From Gemmatimonadota bacterium (lineage in GTDB: Bacteria; ARS69): DNA of 43,006 nucleotides. Below the pieces are notes generated by a model, which worked only from the letters and a program-made list of their open reading frames with translations, was not told the origin of the DNA and made no database searches. Shown here one piece after another: positions 4,542 to 24,351 of the stretch (position 1 is the stretch's first letter; each line of letters starts with the position of its first letter). The stretch lies in contig JASLLL010000001.1 of assembly GCA_030747075.1 (NCBI GenBank), positions 142,868-185,873 of the forward strand, given 5' to 3'. The position numbers were made by a program, and so were the translations under genes.

Positions 4542-4886
4542 CTACCTTTCGACAATCACCTTCATGGTGCCAGCGTTGTCGAATGTCTCGAAACGAAGGT
4601 AGTAGACGCCCGCGGGAACTTCCCCGCCGTCCGCGGACGCTCCGTTCCAGGTGGTGGCATGCACGCCGTCCTGGTGGATATCGCGGACCAGTGTGCAGAC
4701 GCGCCGTCCGTCCGCGTCGTAGAGGGCGAGTTCGGCCGGATGTTCCTCACTCACGCCGTTCCCGCGAACTCCGAAAGAAATCTGGAGGTTTCCTCCTGTG
4801 TACGGCACGGGCCACGCTGACAATGTGATTCCCTTGACGATTCCGTCGGGGTTGGACACGGGGGGAGCCTCCTCGAATGCAAACAT
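4542..4886 (-). CDS. Orphan FlgD-like/T9SS-type C-terminal domain, probable gene remnant
   Basis: The 114-residue ORF is little more than one FlgD-like Ig domain of the kind found at the C-terminus of exported FCB proteins: ALYDADGRRVCTLV, then a WNG motif (TTWNGASADG), then VPAGVYYLRF and a short final strand ending in VIVER. There is no signal peptide or preceding functional domain. In-frame sequence upstream of the ATG contains a TGA (4905-4907), with CCEM just before the start, and nothing recognisable further up. The ATG has no clear ribosome binding site. I read it as the surviving 3' end of a larger surface-protein gene; a very small standalone protein is the alternative. Confidence 0.5.
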   Translation of the reverse strand: MFAFEEAPPVSNPDGIVKGITLSAWPVPYTGGNLQISFGVRGNGVSEEHPAELALYDADGRRVCTLVRDIHQDGVHATTWNGASADGGEVPAGVYYLRFETFDNAGTMKVIVER

Positions 4887-4969
4887 CTCGCAGCAATGTC
4901 CCGATCACGCGGGGACTTCTCCACGCCCCCCCCGAGGGGAGAGCCGGAAGAACCCGGCGCGAAGGGTAG

Positions 4970-4998
4970 ATTCTCTCACAGATAGTCGGAAGATTCAA
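4970..4998 (-). promoter_or_regulatory. Weak sigma70-like promoter candidate
   Basis: On the minus strand TTGAAT (4998-4993) and GAGAAT (4975-4970) are 17 bp apart. Each hexamer matches 4 of 6 consensus positions. It lies about 85 bp upstream of the orphan FlgD-like ORF. The rest of the 139-bp gap between this ORF and recO holds no recognisable gene. Confidence 0.25.
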
Positions 4999-5025
4999 CT
5001 GGACGCTTGAGTGTGTCTTTCCCTG

Positions 5026-5841
5026 CTATTCCTCAAAACCCCTGGGGGGCGTCGTACCCCTCCAGAGGGGGTCCAGAAAGGCCCGCGCCCGGAAGGACGA
5101 GGGGCGGCCGTGGTGGTACGCCAGGACGCCGTCGAGGGCGGTGCGGGCTTCCAGTACGGCCGCCTCGGAGGGTCCCCGGGGAGCGGCCACCACGAACGAC
5201 AGGTCCGCCAGAATGGAACCCCGGAGGAGACTCACGGCCTCCGCACCCAGTCGCCGGCCGCCTTCCGCGTCCCGGCACTGACGGCAGAGAACCCCCCCGC
5301 GACGCGCGGAGAGCGATACGCGGTCTCCCAGGCCGTCTCCCCCGCACTCGACGCAGACCATGAGTTCCGGGGCGATCCCCAGCGTCGCCATCACATGGGC
5401 CTGAAACGCAACCGGCAGCGCCGCGGCCCGCGCGCCCTCTCCCTCGGGAAACGGAGCCACCTCGGTGAGAATGCGAAGCGCCGACAGAAGAAGTTCGTAG
5501 ATCTCGACCGATGCCGCGCCCGGAGGGGCTAGTCGGTCCACGAGTTCCACACAGCTCGCTGCGGCCGCATATCCCAGGACATCAGGAAGAAGCGAGTCGA
5601 AGCTCTCCAGCAGTTCGCAGGTGTCCAGATAGACCAGGTCTCTCCCCGGGCGGGGTCGATAGCCCACCTGCGACCGCGCGAAAAGACCCATCCCCGCCCC
5701 GAAGCGGCTCCCCGGCTTTCGGGCACCTTTGGCCATCACGGCGACCTTCCCGGCTTCGCGCGTGAAGAGCGTCACGACCCGGGAGGAGTCGCCCTGCTTC
5801 ACATGGCGGATGACGATGGCGTCGGTCCGGATGCGTGTCAC
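5026..5841 (-). CDS. recO: DNA repair protein RecO
   Basis: RecO works with RecR and RecF to load RecA on SSB-coated single-stranded DNA. The 271-residue protein has the N-terminal OB-fold signature (MTRIRTDAIVIRHVKQGDSS, then VTLFTREAGKVAVMAKGARK) and a helical C-terminal domain. Its four-Cys zinc site is C163-x2-C166 (VCVECGG) and C186-x2-C189 (LCRQC), present in many but not all RecO proteins. The length is normal for the family. It is the last core gene of the phoH-ybeY cluster, 39 nt after mgtE on the same strand, a position that fits the common bacterial phoH-ybeY-era-recO gene order, though era is absent here. Confidence 0.93.
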   Translation of the reverse strand: MTRIRTDAIVIRHVKQGDSSRVVTLFTREAGKVAVMAKGARKPGSRFGAGMGLFARSQVGYRPRPGRDLVYLDTCELLESFDSLLPDVLGYAAAASCVELVDRLAPPGAASVEIYELLLSALRILTEVAPFPEGEGARAAALPVAFQAHVMATLGIAPELMVCVECGGDGLGDRVSLSARRGGVLCRQCRDAEGGRRLGAEAVSLLRGSILADLSFVVAAPRGPSEAAVLEARTALDGVLAYHHGRPSSFRARAFLDPLWRGTTPPRGFEE

Positions 5842-5880
5842 GGTCCGCGCCGCGGGTTCGCGAACATCGGGTCTCCAGGA

Positions 5881-7221
5881 CTAGAGCATGAAAGACGCAA
5901 AGCTCAGGTAGATGAGAATCCCGAGGATGTCGTTGCTGGTGGTGACGAAGGGACCGGTGGCCAGCGCCGGGTCGATTTTCAGGCGATCCAGCACCAGCGG
6001 CACCAGCGCCCCCACGCTGGTTGACACGAAGATCACGACCAGCATGGACCCGCCGACCACCAACCCCAGCCGGAAGTCGCTCCAGCAGAGCCATGTTGCG
6101 GAGAAGATGCTCACGGAACAGACGGTCCCCGTGAGAACGGCCACGCCGGCTTCCCGCAGGAGACGCCGGGCCGCCTCGCCGGAGGACGGTTCCCCTCCCG
6201 CCAGCCCGCGCACCATCACCGCGCTCGACTGCATCGCCACATTCCCCGCCATGGCCATGATCACCGGGATGAAAAACGCCAGCACGATCACCGACTCCAG
6301 CTTCGCCTCAAAGCTGGACAGGACCAGCGCCGACAGCACGCCTCCGCCAAGCCCGGCCAGCAGCCACGGCAGGCGGAGCCCGGCCTTGCGAACCACCGAC
6401 TCCTCGTGGAACTCCTCGCCGGTTCCCGCGAGACGCGAGTAGTCCTCCTCGGCCTCCTCGTGGATGACATCCACGATGTCGTCCACCATGATCCGCCCGA
6501 GAAGCGTCCCGTCCCGATCCACCACCGGCACCGAAGGAAGATCGTACTTCTTGAAAATCTGCGCGACTTCCTCCTGGTCCATGTCCGCCGGAACCGCGTG
6601 CGTCTCTTCGTCGATGAGTTGCTCCACGAGATCGGCCGGCTTCGCGAGAATCAACTGCCGCAGATGCAGCCGCCCCGCAAGTTGGCCCTGCGCATTCGTG
6701 ACATAGACGAAGAAGAGGTCGTCCTCGATTTCATCCGAGGCCGCGCGGATCTTTTCGATGGTCCACGCGACCGTTCGATCCCGGCGGACCGACACCACCT
6801 CCAACTGCATGATGCCGCCCGCGGTGTCTTCCGCGTAGGTGAGCAGGCGCGCGATTTCCTCGCGATCCTCCTCCTCCAGCAGCCCCACAACCTCGTCCGC
6901 CTTGGCGTCTTCCAGTTCGGAGACCACATCCGCCGCGTCATCGGAGGCCATCTCTTCCACGACGCCCGCGATCTCCCGCGGTGTCAGCCGTTCCAGGATG
7001 TCCTCGCGCGCCTCCTCAGGCACTTCCACCAGAATGTCGGCGGACACTTCCTCCGGGAGCGCGTGAAGAATGCGGATGACTTCGTCTTCGTCCAGCCGTC
7101 GCGCGGCCTCCGCGACATCCGCGGCGGGGGTCTTCTCCACCAGCGCAACAAGACCCGCACGATCGCCGGTCGCGAGGAGGTCCGTCAGGTGCCGGGCGAG
7201 GGTGGCGGGATCAGTTTCCAC
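5881..7221 (-). CDS. mgtE: Magnesium transporter MgtE
   Basis: This 446-residue protein has the three MgtE parts in order. First is the N-terminal acidic helical-repeat domain (about 1-130, with LPEEVSADILVEVPEE). Second is a CBS-domain pair (about 135-265, including AGGIMQLEVVSV and VPVVDRDGTLLGRIMVDDI). Third is a C-terminal membrane domain with about five helices (about 285-446, including PVIMAMAGNVAMQSSAVMVR, the pore helix region). Family members are Mg2+ channels closed by Mg2+ binding between the N and CBS domains. The start is a GTG at 7221-7219 preceded by GGAGGGGAGA. It lies in an operon with a CNNM/CorC-like gene, a second family linked to Mg2+ handling. Confidence 0.95.
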   Translation of the reverse strand: METDPATLARHLTDLLATGDRAGLVALVEKTPAADVAEAARRLDEDEVIRILHALPEEVSADILVEVPEEAREDILERLTPREIAGVVEEMASDDAADVVSELEDAKADEVVGLLEEEDREEIARLLTYAEDTAGGIMQLEVVSVRRDRTVAWTIEKIRAASDEIEDDLFFVYVTNAQGQLAGRLHLRQLILAKPADLVEQLIDEETHAVPADMDQEEVAQIFKKYDLPSVPVVDRDGTLLGRIMVDDIVDVIHEEAEEDYSRLAGTGEEFHEESVVRKAGLRLPWLLAGLGGGVLSALVLSSFEAKLESVIVLAFFIPVIMAMAGNVAMQSSAVMVRGLAGGEPSSGEAARRLLREAGVAVLTGTVCSVSIFSATWLCWSDFRLGLVVGGSMLVVIFVSTSVGALVPLVLDRLKIDPALATGPFVTTSNDILGILIYLSFASFML

Positions 7222-19733: not shown

Positions 19734-19808
19734 CACATCCCGCTGCGTATTCCATGCCGGTGAGTGTCGTTTCTCTCTCCGCCTGCCCCTTTGGAGCTGT
19801 CCGTTACG

Positions 19809-20342
19809 ATGGGTACCCAAGCGCGCATCGTCGTCTCCGCCTGCCTGCTGGGTGAGCGCGTCCGCTACGACGGCGGGCACTGCCGTGCTGAGGCAATCCT
19901 CCGGAAAATGGGACCGTCCGTGGAGTGGGTTCCGCTCTGCCCGGAGGCCGATGCCGGGTTGGGAGTACCTCGTGAGACCATCGACCTCGTGCGGGCGGGG
20001 GGTGCGCTTCGCCTCCTCGGCACCGAGACGCGCACCGATCACACTCAGGCCATGCGCCGGTGGGCCACGAAACGCGCGAAGGCACTCCGTGAGGCGGGCG
20101 TGGACGGATGCGTTCTGAAGGCGCGGTCACCGAGTTGCGGAGTGGGCAGCGCGCGAGTTCTGGACGGACACGGAGCGGAACACGCGCGGGAAGACGGGAT
20201 GTTCGCGCGGGCTGTCCGGGAGGCCATGCCGAGTCTCCCCGTGGCGGAGGAGTCGGACCTCGAGGAACCCACCGCCCTGCGGGAGTTCCTCGAAGCCGTC
20301 CTCCACCATGCCCGGGAGAGGGCCGGGTCGACTAGCGGGTGA
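19809..20342 (+). CDS. DUF523 family protein (TudS-like thiouracil desulfidase)
   Basis: The 177-residue protein starts MGTQARIVVSACLLGERVRY and carries the DUF523 signatures: SACLLG, WVPLCPEADAGLGVPRE, and LKARSPSCG. The three Cys (in ACLLG, PLCPE and PSCG) are the ones that hold a [4Fe-4S] cluster in characterised TudS desulfidases, which remove sulfur from thiouracil or thio-UMP. The second Cys of the usual CLLGxxCRYDG motif is Val here. The ATG at 19809 is chosen by homology; a GTG 45 nt upstream is possible. The last 11 nt overlap the tail of the converging beta-propeller gene. Confidence 0.85.
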   Translation: MGTQARIVVSACLLGERVRYDGGHCRAEAILRKMGPSVEWVPLCPEADAGLGVPRETIDLVRAGGALRLLGTETRTDHTQAMRRWATKRAKALREAGVDGCVLKARSPSCGVGSARVLDGHGAEHAREDGMFARAVREAMPSLPVAEESDLEEPTALREFLEAVLHHARERAGSTSG

Positions 20343-22839
20343 CGATCAACTTCCTGGAGATCCGCTCTTCCCCCGCCTTCAGCACCGCAAAGTAGACGCC
20401 GGACGGCACATCATCCGTGAGCCAGTCGGCCATTCGGATGAGTCCGTCGCCTGCGGGAATCTCCGCAACGCGACTGACCAGTCGGCCTGCGACATCGTGA
20501 ATGTCGAGCGTCACGACCCCGGCATACTTCGCGGCAAACCGAAGCGTGGCCTGATCCGTCACCGGGTTCGGCCAGGGCGCGTCGAGCATGAGATTCCGCG
20601 GCCCCGCCTGCACGCCCGTCTCCACGCCTGTGCTCATGGAGGTGATGTCCACCTCCCACATTCCGCGCCCATAGGTGCCCGCCACGAGTTTGCCGCCCGA
20701 GCGGTGAATCTCCAGATCTGAGACGACGACATTCGGGAGGCCGGTCTCAAACGGGGACCAGCTTCCTCCGGCATCGAGCGATGCCCAGACGCCGACATCG
20801 GTTCCAATGAACCAGTGGTCCGTGTTCGACCAGTCCACCGCGATCGCGTTCACCGGCTGGGAGGGGAAGTTCGACGACTTGTCGGTCCAGGTGGATCCGC
20901 TGTCGGTGGTGAGCGCAATGTGGCTGGTTCCATCTCCGTAGCCGGAGAAGACGACGATGGCGGAGTTCGTATCGGTCGGGTGCGCCAGTATCTTCGTCAC
21001 GCCCCCGGTCGAAAACCCGTACGGCGAAGCCTGCGTCCAGCTCCCTCCGTCATCGGTCGTTTGATACACTCCGGACCCCGCAGTCCAGACGACATTTCCA
21101 TCTACCGGGCTGATCGAGATCCAGGTGGCGGTCTGCCCGCCGACATTGGTCCAGTTGGATCCGCCGTTCAAGGTGCGGAAGATCCCGTCGCTGGACGAGG
21201 TGTAGAGATGGTTGGGTGTTACCTGGTCTTCATCCACCGGGGCGACCCACGCGCCGGTGCCCGTGATGCCGCTGTTGATCTGTGACCATCCCGTACCGCC
21301 GTTGGAGGTCTTCCGGTGGTCTCCGTAATAGAGTTCCGCGTAGATCACATTGGCGGAAGTGGGCTTGACATTGCAGACCATCCCGTCGCCACCGAGGATG
21401 TAGGTCCAGTTGGATGTTCCGGTCCACTTGTCGGTGCCATTGTCCTGGCTGCCGCCCACGGCAATGGTCGGGCTCGATTGCGCCACGCAGATGTCGTAGA
21501 ACTGGAAAGTCACGAGTCCGTTGTTCAGGTCCGTCCAGCTGGTGCCATCGTTCTGTGAGCGGTAGATCCCGCCGTCGTTCGCGACCCAGAGATTCGAGTT
21601 GCTCCCCGGCTCGTAGCGGACTGCATGGTAGTCCACATGAACCCAGTTCCCGATCTGGCTGTAGCCCGTCCCGCCGTTGGTGGACCGATAGAGACGCACG
21701 CCTCCGGCGATGATGCGGTCGGCGTTGTTCGGATCCGCCGCGAGGATCAGGTTGTACCAGCCCTGCCCGCCACCGATGTTGGGGTTGGCGCCAGAGCGTT
21801 GCGTCCAGGTGGAGCCGCCGTCCGTAGACCGATAGACGCCGGTCGTCCCGCCGTTGCTCGAGTTCTCGGAGTAGAGTGCGTAGATGTAGTCGGGGTTGGC
21901 GGCGGTCACCGCGATCTTCGACTTCCCGACCGTCCAGGACGAGGGCTGCCCCGTTCCGGCCTTTGCCCAGGTGAGTCCGTCGTCGGTGGAGATCTTGACA
22001 TTGTTTCCCGACGCGGAGGACCCCTTGACCGTGTAGACGGTATTCGGGTCTCCCGGCTTCCACTTGACATCGTAGTAGTCGTCGCCGGTCTTCACATCGA
22101 TCCAGGTGTTCCCATCATCCGTGGAGCGCCACAGGCCGTCCATCGCGCCCGCGAGAATGGTCCCCGTCGTGGCGTTTGCCTCCATGGCGTGGAAGCCGCT
22201 GTTGCTTCCCGATGGCTTGGTGTAGTCCGTCGTGTTCCAGGTGGCGCCCGCGTCGGTCGACTTGAGAATGCCGACGCCGTGGACATCGCCGTTCGCGCCC
22301 TCGCCCGTGCCGATCAGGACAATGTCCGGATTCCAAGGCAGCACGCAGACCGCGCCAATGGCGATCGACGGGATCTCGTCGGAAATGGGCGCCCAACTCG
22401 ACCCGTAGTCCGTGCTCTTCCAGAGTCCGCCGCTGGCGGAGCCCGCATAAACGATGTTCACATCGCTCGGGTGGAAGTCGATATCGAGCATTCGCCCGGC
22501 GTAGTTGCCCGGCCCCAGCGAGAACCAGGTCGACCTTGAGGAGGCGGGCCGCGCCGCTTCCATCTCCCGCTTCGCTTCCCAGGCCTTCCAGCGCGCGTCC
22601 GGGGCCGGGCCTTCCCCGTTCACAAGTCGCTGCTCGCGGAACCACTTGATCCGGTTGTACGGCTTCCAGCCGCTGCCGCGCGTGTCCTGAAGTTCGGGAT
22701 GGGCCTCGAAGTGTCGGGCCATGCCGTCGATCCATGCATCGGTCCGGTCGACTTCCGGCGCGGAAACGGCGGGGGCGGGCAGCGTCGCAAGAAGGGCGAC
22801 CATCACCACCGTCGCCAGCGAGATTCGAAGTGTATTCAT
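20332..22839 (-). CDS. Exported Asp-box (BNR/sortilin-like) beta-propeller with FlgD-like C-terminal domain
   Basis: From the ATG at 22839 the protein has 835 residues. A signal peptide comes first (MNTLRISLATVVMVALLATL, then PAPAVSA). The body holds about twelve Asp-box motifs of the form S-x-D-x-G-x-x-W, for example LWKSTDYGSSW, LWRSTDDGNTW, VYRSTDGGSTW, VYQTTDDGGSW and VWASLDAGGSW. They are spaced about 45-60 residues apart, as in VPS10/sortilin and sialidase-like propellers. The last 75 residues form a FlgD-like domain (VTLDIHDVAGRLVSRV, then DVPSGVYFAVLKAG and RKLIVTR), the likely sorting or anchoring signal. No enzymatic site is evident. It should be secreted or cell-surface, with binding or adhesive function. 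Confidence 0.87.
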   Translation of the reverse strand: MNTLRISLATVVMVALLATLPAPAVSAPEVDRTDAWIDGMARHFEAHPELQDTRGSGWKPYNRIKWFREQRLVNGEGPAPDARWKAWEAKREMEAARPASSRSTWFSLGPGNYAGRMLDIDFHPSDVNIVYAGSASGGLWKSTDYGSSWAPISDEIPSIAIGAVCVLPWNPDIVLIGTGEGANGDVHGVGILKSTDAGATWNTTDYTKPSGSNSGFHAMEANATTGTILAGAMDGLWRSTDDGNTWIDVKTGDDYYDVKWKPGDPNTVYTVKGSSASGNNVKISTDDGLTWAKAGTGQPSSWTVGKSKIAVTAANPDYIYALYSENSSNGGTTGVYRSTDGGSTWTQRSGANPNIGGGQGWYNLILAADPNNADRIIAGGVRLYRSTNGGTGYSQIGNWVHVDYHAVRYEPGSNSNLWVANDGGIYRSQNDGTSWTDLNNGLVTFQFYDICVAQSSPTIAVGGSQDNGTDKWTGTSNWTYILGGDGMVCNVKPTSANVIYAELYYGDHRKTSNGGTGWSQINSGITGTGAWVAPVDEDQVTPNHLYTSSSDGIFRTLNGGSNWTNVGGQTATWISISPVDGNVVWTAGSGVYQTTDDGGSWTQASPYGFSTGGVTKILAHPTDTNSAIVVFSGYGDGTSHIALTTDSGSTWTDKSSNFPSQPVNAIAVDWSNTDHWFIGTDVGVWASLDAGGSWSPFETGLPNVVVSDLEIHRSGGKLVAGTYGRGMWEVDITSMSTGVETGVQAGPRNLMLDAPWPNPVTDQATLRFAAKYAGVVTLDIHDVAGRLVSRVAEIPAGDGLIRMADWLTDDVPSGVYFAVLKAGEERISRKLIVTR

Positions 22840-22998
22840 GGGTGGGATTCCTCTCGGTCCTGGATGTCTGATGGGAACGCACGGTCGGGGAGGAGACGCG
22901 TGAGCACAATCCTGCGTGGATACTACCACACTTGGCGACAAATCTCACGCCGGGCGGAAGCGGAGGGCGTAGCGAGGGGCTGAGTCAGGGTTCAGGCC

Positions 22999-23027
22999 GC
23001 TCAGGGGGCGAGCGCCACCCCCTGAGC
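22999..23027. terminator. Perfect 10-bp hairpin after the thioredoxin gene
   Basis: GCTCAGGGGG (22999-23008) pairs perfectly with CCCCCTGAGC (23018-23027) around a 9-nt loop. It starts 9 nt beyond the stop of the thioredoxin-like gene (minus strand). It lacks a U-tract, so termination is inferred from position and strength. Confidence 0.5.
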
Positions 23028-23036
23028 GAAAATGGT

Positions 23037-24233
23037 CTAGTCCGTCTCACCCGCCAGTTCTGCAAAGCGGGTTTCCTGCCCCTTGTAATGCTCGTTCTCG
23101 GGATCCTCTTTCCGCGCAACACGCATGGTCGCAAGGGCTTCCACCGGGCGGCCCCGGGCGTTCTGGATCTCCGCAAGGGTGTCAAGAATATGTCCCCTCG
23201 CGCTGCCCTCCGACGACAACTCCACGCCACGGGTGGCCAGTTCCTCCGCCTCTTCCAGATTCACGCCGTTCTCAAAGCACCACCACGCGAAGCTGTTGAG
23301 TTCACGCGCGTCCTCCCGCCAGCCCTCCTCAAGGAGTACCCGCTTGTGCCGGAGCGCCGCTTCGGCATCTCCGTTGACACGCAGTTCGTAGTCCGGGCGA
23401 AGCGCAAGCACCTGCTGCGCCACGCTCTCATCTTCCGAGCCTTCCGCGCCCTCGACGGCCGCCTTGATGTAGGGCGTCGCAAAGTCTTCATCGCCCAGCA
23501 CTCCTTCCGCCCAGCGAATGATTGACGACACGCGCAGAAGGTCCGTCGGGGTCGCCTTCTCGGAAGCCACCACCGCATCCGCCGCCGCGGCAATCTCCTC
23601 CTGCGTCCCCTCGCCATTCTCCATGAGGTGGTAGATGCGGCACCGGAGGATGTCGTCCTCGCGCTTCACATCCTCCCGCGATTCCATTTCGATCGCCTTC
23701 AGATAGAGCGCGATCGCCGCCTCATACTTCCCCTGCGATTCCTCAATGCGGGCCAGTGACACCGCCCCTGCCCCGGTGGGATTCTCACCGAATCGAACGC
23801 GCTTCTCGTCGATCGTGGCCAGGTCCGCTGTCGCGCTGGCAAGGCGTTCGGTGAACCCGTCCGCATCGCCGTATCCGGCCCACACATCGATGGCCGCCCC
23901 CTCGGCGTTCATCAGAACGAAGGTCGGGAAACCGCTGACCCCGTAACGGGCCGCGAGGTCCACGCCCTCGCCCTTCTCGGCATCCACCCGGAAGAGGATG
24001 ACCGGTTCCAGCGCCTTCTGCATGTTCTCATCGCTATCCACCGCACGGGCGAATGTCTTGCAGGGGCCTCACCAGTCGGCGAAGAAGTCCACAAGCAGCG
24101 GGACATTGCGAGACGCGGACCAGGCTCGGGCCTCTTCGAAGGTGGTCGGTTCGGTCGGCGCCTTCGTCCGGGAGCAACCCGCAAGGGCGACCCCAATCCC
24201 GGCGACCAGGAGAACGCGGGTGGAGATATGCAT
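23037..24233 (-). CDS. Selenocysteine thioredoxin-like lipoprotein with TPR region (in-frame UGA)
   Basis: Read with the TGA at 24071-24069 as selenocysteine, the frame gives a 398-residue protein. The ATG at 24233 follows AAGGAAA by 5 nt and starts a lipoprotein signal peptide (hydrophobic VLLVAGIGVALAG, lipobox LAGC with Cys20). A thioredoxin fold follows: PLLVDFFADW, then U55-G-P-C58-K. The TGA replaces the first, nucleophilic Cys of canonical WCGPCK. The fold continues with VILFRVDAEKGEG and the cis-Pro loop VSGFPTFVLM (about residue 87). Residues 150-398 are helical with TPR-like repeats (IEESQGKYEAAIALYLKAIE, and near the end RGRPVEALATMRVARKEDPE). Without recoding, a gene finder would start at the GTG at 24041 and lose the signal and active site. 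A hairpin fitting a bacterial SECIS lies just after the TGA. A role as an envelope thiol or peroxide reductase is inferred. Confidence 0.85.
24036..24071 (-). promoter_or_regulatory. Bacterial SECIS-like element with UGA codon
   Basis: On the minus strand the UGA (24071-24069) is followed by 14 nt, then AUUCGCC (24054-24048), the loop CGUGC (24047-24043) and GGUGGAU (24042-24036). All seven positions pair (two are G-U). The loop begins 21 nt after the UGA and has G at its second position, within the known limits for bacterial SECIS (about 16-37 nt, G among the first two loop bases). The loop contains GU, as in the SelB-binding loop of E. coli fdhF. Confidence 0.7.
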
Positions 24234-24351
24234 TTCGGTTTCCTTTCGTGGGGGAATGGGAGACGAAGGCTAGCACCGGGTGGAGAACGCTGCAACCGGC
24301 GACGCGGGATGGGATGCCGACGCGCGTGCGGCAACCGCGCATCACGCCGGG

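Follow-up and report, generated by a model that had tools for sequence, protein, structure and literature searches.

A putative selenocysteine-containing thioredoxin-TPR protein in a Gemmatimonadota genome and its relatives in several bacterial phyla

The gene and its in-frame TGA

The window (the whole stretch of DNA that was analysed, 43,006 nucleotides) contains on its minus strand a frame from an ATG at 24233 to a TAG terminator at 23039-23037, which translates into 398 residues. Its sole internal stop is a TGA at 24071-24069, corresponding to residue 55. The surrounding residues read FFADW-U-GPCK, so that the TGA lies at the first Cys position of the thioredoxin W-C-x-x-C-K motif. The first-pass annotation had pointed to this single TGA, to a LAGC lipobox 5' of it and to a cis-Pro and TPRs 3' of it; the translation and the Pfam matches bore this out, and the same TGA was found in 19 of 30 homologues. 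The features of the locus are listed below.

23037..24233, minus: selenoprotein gene encoding a signal peptide, a UxxC thioredoxin domain and a TPR superhelix (translation, Pfam, alignment, AlphaFold2)
24241..24246, minus: AAAGGA, resembling a ribosome binding site, 7 nt 5' of the ATG (read in the sequence)
24174..24233, minus: signal sequence, residues 1-20, ending in the lipobox LAGC at residues 17-20 (sequence; low-confidence N-terminal helix in the AlphaFold model)
24069..24071, minus: TGA as putative codon for Sec, residue 55, at the first of the two redox positions in UGPC (19 homologues likewise have TGA here)
24060..24071, minus: redox motif UGPC, residues 55-58 (31/31 aligned sequences have C58)
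24035..24055, minus: SECIS-like hairpin of 7-8 bp with the 5-nt loop CGTGC at 24047-24043 (comparative folding; bSECIS constraints of PMC13188914)
23826..24143, minus: thioredoxin-fold domain, residues 31-136, with the invariant cis-Pro P103 (Pfam, alignment, structure model)
23043..23813, minus: all-helical TPR superhelix, residues 141-397 (Pfam, structure model)
23271..23291, minus: family signature FAWWCFE, residues 315-321 (alignment)
22997..23029, minus: strong 14-bp hairpin directly 3' of the stop codon, terminator-like without a T run (-29.1 kcal/mol, z -5.0)

Pfam placed a thioredoxin domain within about residues 31-130, with PF00085 matching residues 42-118 above its cut-off (E 2e-14) and PF13098 matching the same domain with E 1.6e-11, and gave weak TPR matches C-terminal to it. 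The AlphaFold2 model, built from 31 sequences, had a mean pLDDT of 93.4; in it a signal helix is followed by a thioredoxin fold reaching approximately residue 136 and by an all-helical superhelix over residues 141-397. The best structure matches in the PDB were thioredoxins or DsbD-gamma for the N-terminal part and TPR superhelices for the C-terminal part, and the full-length model had no good PDB structure match. The PF00085 match above cut-off, the WxxxC-type motif of the active site, the invariant P103 and the agreement of the model with solved thioredoxins place the protein in the thioredoxin superfamily. In the FAWWCFE signature, W317, W318, F320 and E321 were invariant across the 31-sequence alignment and C319 was at least 90% conserved.

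Using the lipobox pattern [LVI][ASTVI][GAS]C, a clear lipobox was found only in the window protein (LAGC, residues 17-20) and in one homologue (L039), and by its sequence C20 of the window protein is likely lipidated. Since most homologues carry an ordinary signal peptide in place of a lipobox, we infer that export is a trait of the family and that lipid anchoring, as judged from these N-termini, is not. The earlier reading of the gene as a lipid-anchored selenothioredoxin with a TPR scaffold thus held for the selenothioredoxin and TPR parts; the lipid anchor stood for the window protein and failed as a family trait.

Homologues and the distribution of Sec and Cys

The window protein was aligned with 30 homologues of 31-40% identity. 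Codon 55 was TGA in 19 of them, Cys in 10 and Ser in one, in answer to the concern that random residues might be found at this position. None of the 19 TGA homologues had any internal stop besides the single TGA at codon 55. P103 was invariant across the alignment, and the two residues between the redox positions of UxxC varied among members (GP, PS, NT, AA, RW and GG). The comparison sets defined by taxonomic family and by phylum were the same five genomes, among which two same-family orthologues kept the TGA (FYATW*GPCK in G001 and FFTTW*AACK in G004). A second copy in G004 has Ser at this position (WSYSCK). Another family copy (G003:C154, L013 and L024) lacks the active-site region and has a broken frame, as a result of either a deletion or an assembly error.

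A scan of GTDB genomes with the family sequences returned approximately 31 strong matches, in Zixibacteria, Eisenbacteria, Krumholzibacteriota, Acidobacteriota, Calditrichia and MAGs labelled Gemmatimonadota. The TGA form was present in at least 19 further genomes across several bacterial phyla, and the Acidobacteriota isolate Sulfidibacter corallicola has the Cys form. A read error, the possibility raised when the gene was first described, is rejected by means of the homologues, since assemblies made independently of one another share the TGA. Purifying selection maintains the protein encoded beyond the TGA: dN/dS in this part was about 0.18 over 343 codons for the closest pair (L042/L056) and about 0.3 to 0.6 for further pairs.

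A maximum-likelihood tree was computed with the active-site columns excluded. Seven changes of the Sec label were required on this tree, three of them forced by the starred branches alone, with many deep branches unsupported; because of these changes, Sec and Cys appear to have been exchanged repeatedly in the family. The Cys gene L044 (TGC; Zixibacteria, L044:2570-3739) grouped with L037, a Sec gene, as its sister (support 99/92). Sec and Cys copies also occur together: one genome (G016) carries both on a single contig (L054:383-1546 and 4872-6053), about 3.3 kb apart and 61% identical downstream of the codon 55 position, and has an additional Cys copy (L048). A Holophagae MAG has three related thioredoxin-TPR copies in tandem (L060:2300-6077), two of which are only 24-26% identical to the query.

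A SECIS-like hairpin and the recoding machinery

Directly 3' of the TGA the same hairpin could be formed in all 20 Sec genes. It begins 13-14 nt after the UGA and has a stem of 7-8 bp and a 5-nt loop C-G-[U/G]-G-N, with 21 nt from the UGA to the loop. Folding of the aligned genes with RNAalifold gave this hairpin, and both sides had changed in four of its pairs. When the structure was named, 90.6% of the stem cells were paired across the 20 Sec genes, compared with 34-54% with a slid partner; five stem pairs were changed on both sides in this test, and the observed covariation score was reached by no shuffle. The Cys/Ser set was 54.5% paired, which was no better than its own controls. Under a null in which synonymous codons were drawn from each gene's own usage with the protein kept, 134 of 140 core pairs were observed against 103 expected (z 8.5) and the hairpin energy had a z of -8.4, although the z values from covariation and from codons are inflated by the shared ancestry of the 20 genes. 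The Arg codon in the loop was CGT or CGG in 20/20, whereas the commonest Arg codon elsewhere in these genes is CGC.

A covariance model was built from the 19 homologues with the window left out, and was run on the whole host genome. The window site scored 50.3 bits (E 1.5e-13), a score that includes coding similarity, and the next match scored 17.3. The Cys gene L044, which folds the full hairpin, scored 33.9 bits, and the remaining Cys genes scored about 17 bits or less. Because it keeps the complete hairpin, L044 is apparently a recent Sec-to-Cys replacement with the SECIS-like element still in place.

The published bSECIS model calls for a stem of 4-16 bp, a loop of 3-9 nt with a G in its first two positions, a distance of 16-37 nt from the UGA and an energy at or below -7.5 kcal/mol (PMC13188914). 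The window hairpin agrees with it, having a 7-8 bp stem, the 5-nt loop CGTGC, a distance of 21 nt and -8.4 kcal/mol over 48 nt. Taken alone, the window hairpin (48 nt, -8.4 kcal/mol) had no stability advantage over shuffled sequences of the same base composition (z +1.0). The element came from the comparison of homologues and not from an Rfam model, and an Rfam search of the window gave no match.

The host genome (2.67 Mb in 61 contigs, 100% complete) was searched for selA, selB, selC and selD, as had been proposed, and all four were present. SelA lies at C13:52985-54070 (E 8e-134), SelB at C18:11597-13474 (357 bits in frame), SelD at C4:62873-63799 (E 5e-109) and tRNA-Sec at C8:22144-22237 (anticodon TCA, called SeC, 73 bits). 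The selC gene is on a different contig from selA; neither the window nor the surroundings of selA gave a tRNA with ARAGORN. A second tRNA-Sec match over threshold (C3:152095-152179) was dropped, being a tRNA-Leu by ARAGORN. In the SelD gene itself (G000:C4:62873-63799, L033) a TGA interrupts the frame at the position known to hold Sec or Cys (HCAG*ASK), and a strong hairpin comes after it (-24.8 kcal/mol, z -4.3); the host SelD is therefore probably a selenoprotein as well.

Among the 19 genomes with the TGA form, SelA was detected in 15, tRNA-Sec in 16 and SelB in 17, and at least one of these in 18; SelA was thus undetected in the assemblies of four. The exception was G016, in whose assembly SelA, SelB and tRNA-Sec were all undetected. 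The Cys form cannot be taken simply as a sign that a genome has lost Sec, since SelA was also present in six of the eight Cys-only genomes.

Judged on the sequence evidence, the gene at 23037-24233 very probably encodes a genuine selenoprotein with Sec at active-site residue 55. UGA is reassigned in some bacterial lineages, and a suppressor tRNA might decode this codon as Trp, Gly or Cys; however, such decoding is very improbable given that SelA, SelB, SelD and tRNA-Sec are present, that each gene has one TGA, at the catalytic position only, where 10 homologues have Cys, and that in several homologues the reading frame itself terminates with TGA. It can hardly be credited that a recent nonsense mutation or a miscall produced the TGA and that the protein is not made: real pseudogenes do carry stops, and the family copy on G003:C154 has lost its active-site region and has a frame break, but here 19 homologues belonging to several phyla share the TGA at this codon and have no further internal stop, dN/dS after it is well below 1, and the hairpin 3' of it is under RNA-level constraint. 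The first-pass annotation had likewise argued against a decayed gene.

Relation to known selenoproteins and proposed function

A 2026 review lists 119 prokaryotic selenoprotein families, including Sec thioredoxins and other UxxC proteins of the Trx fold, and describes no Trx-TPR selenoprotein among them (PMC13188914). No description of a Sec/TPR protein, or of a lineage-specific one, was found in a literature search, and no NCBIfam model passed its cut-off with the window protein. The earlier remark that a lipid-anchored selenothioredoxin joined to TPRs was not known as a described family agrees with its absence from this inventory and with the lack of an NCBIfam model over cut-off.

The closest known systems differ from it in several respects. 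The Sec thioredoxin (Trx, PF00085, UxxC; PMC13188914 Table 1) has the Trx fold with Sec at the first redox position, and the window protein shares the UGPC motif with it; unlike that protein, the window protein is predicted to be exported and has an additional ~260 TPR residues with FAWWCFE. It scored 50.3 bits against the TrxA equivalog TIGR01068, below the cut-off of 96.8. The Sec thiol:disulfide interchange protein (PF13098, UxxC) and the thiol-disulfide isomerase-like selenoprotein (cd02966), both in Table 1 of PMC13188914, also combine the Trx fold with UxxC, and are set apart from the present family by their descriptions, which list no TPR domain. The Trx7/PDZ selenoprotein (NF041199) likewise joins a Thioredoxin_7-type domain to a second domain, but has CxxU and PDZ where the window protein has UxxC and TPR, and the score against this equivalog was 11.2 bits with a cut-off of 300. 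The C-terminal (gamma) domain of DsbD, a periplasmic Trx fold, was among the better sequence and structure matches; in contrast to DsbD, the window protein lacks the membrane domain and has Sec for Cys and TPR for the DsbD scaffold.

These genes probably form an undescribed multi-phylum family of exported UxxC thioredoxin-TPR proteins, with its own conserved SECIS element (loop CGKG), repeated interchange of Sec and Cys, Sec and Cys paralogues on the same contig, and one lineage in which Sec was replaced by Cys with the SECIS element kept. Standard gene calling would end or mis-start such a gene at the TGA, and the protein is therefore probably missing or truncated in annotations, among others those of Zixibacteria, Krumholzibacteriota, Eisenbacteria and Acidobacteriota. 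The family would add an exported selenol redox protein to lineages with little-studied selenium use. With its Sec, Cys and Ser members, and with what appears to be a relic SECIS element in one of the Cys genes, it makes Sec/Cys exchange directly testable.

Sequence evidence shows the signals for Sec insertion, the recoding machinery, the domain order and the export signal, and on this basis a mechanism can be proposed. The UGA at codon 55 would be read as Sec by tRNA-Sec(UCA) on SelB, with insertion directed by the hairpin that begins 13-14 nt after it. The product would be exported and, in this host, probably lipid-anchored. The U55 selenol may then attack disulfides or similar oxidised groups of a substrate, with C58 resolving the selenenylsulfide, and the TPR superhelix probably holds a client or partner protein. 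The host genome encodes a DsbD-type protein whose membrane cysteines are intact, and a DsbD-type membrane reductase of this kind would most likely keep the thioredoxin domain reduced. We give roughly even chances to the resulting picture of a periplasmic UxxC selenol-disulfide reductase fed by DsbD, in which the substrate, the electron donor and the direction of the reaction are inferred.

The protein might instead act mainly as a disulfide isomerase or oxidase, or as an enzyme reducing peroxides or sulfoxides, a reading to which we attach appreciable though lesser weight. The residues between the two redox positions tune the redox potential of Trx-fold proteins and vary widely in this family, and the top PDB sequence matches were protein disulfide isomerase domains, both of which favour such a role. 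The structure matches, on the other hand, include the reductive DsbD-gamma and thioredoxins, and this together with the DsbD-type protein of the host speaks for the DsbD-fed reductase, although neither point is decisive.

In the window, the gene is flanked upstream by the gene of an MgsA-type ATPase and downstream by that of a sortilin-like secreted protein. Inspection of the neighbours at 19 loci revealed no shared partner gene and no hint of the substrate or the electron donor. Since the neighbourhood varies by locus and a strong hairpin stands directly 3' of the stop codon, the gene is suggested to be a single-gene unit. The adjoining gene at 20332-22941 (minus strand) encodes a large secreted protein with sortilin/VPS10-like repeats and, at its C-terminus, a secretion-sorting tail (PF18962). 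Further along the window, at 19764-20342 on the plus strand, lies the gene of a Cys-containing protein resembling DUF523 / 2-thiouracil desulfurase; DUF523 with Sec is listed among bacterial selenoproteins (PMC13188914).
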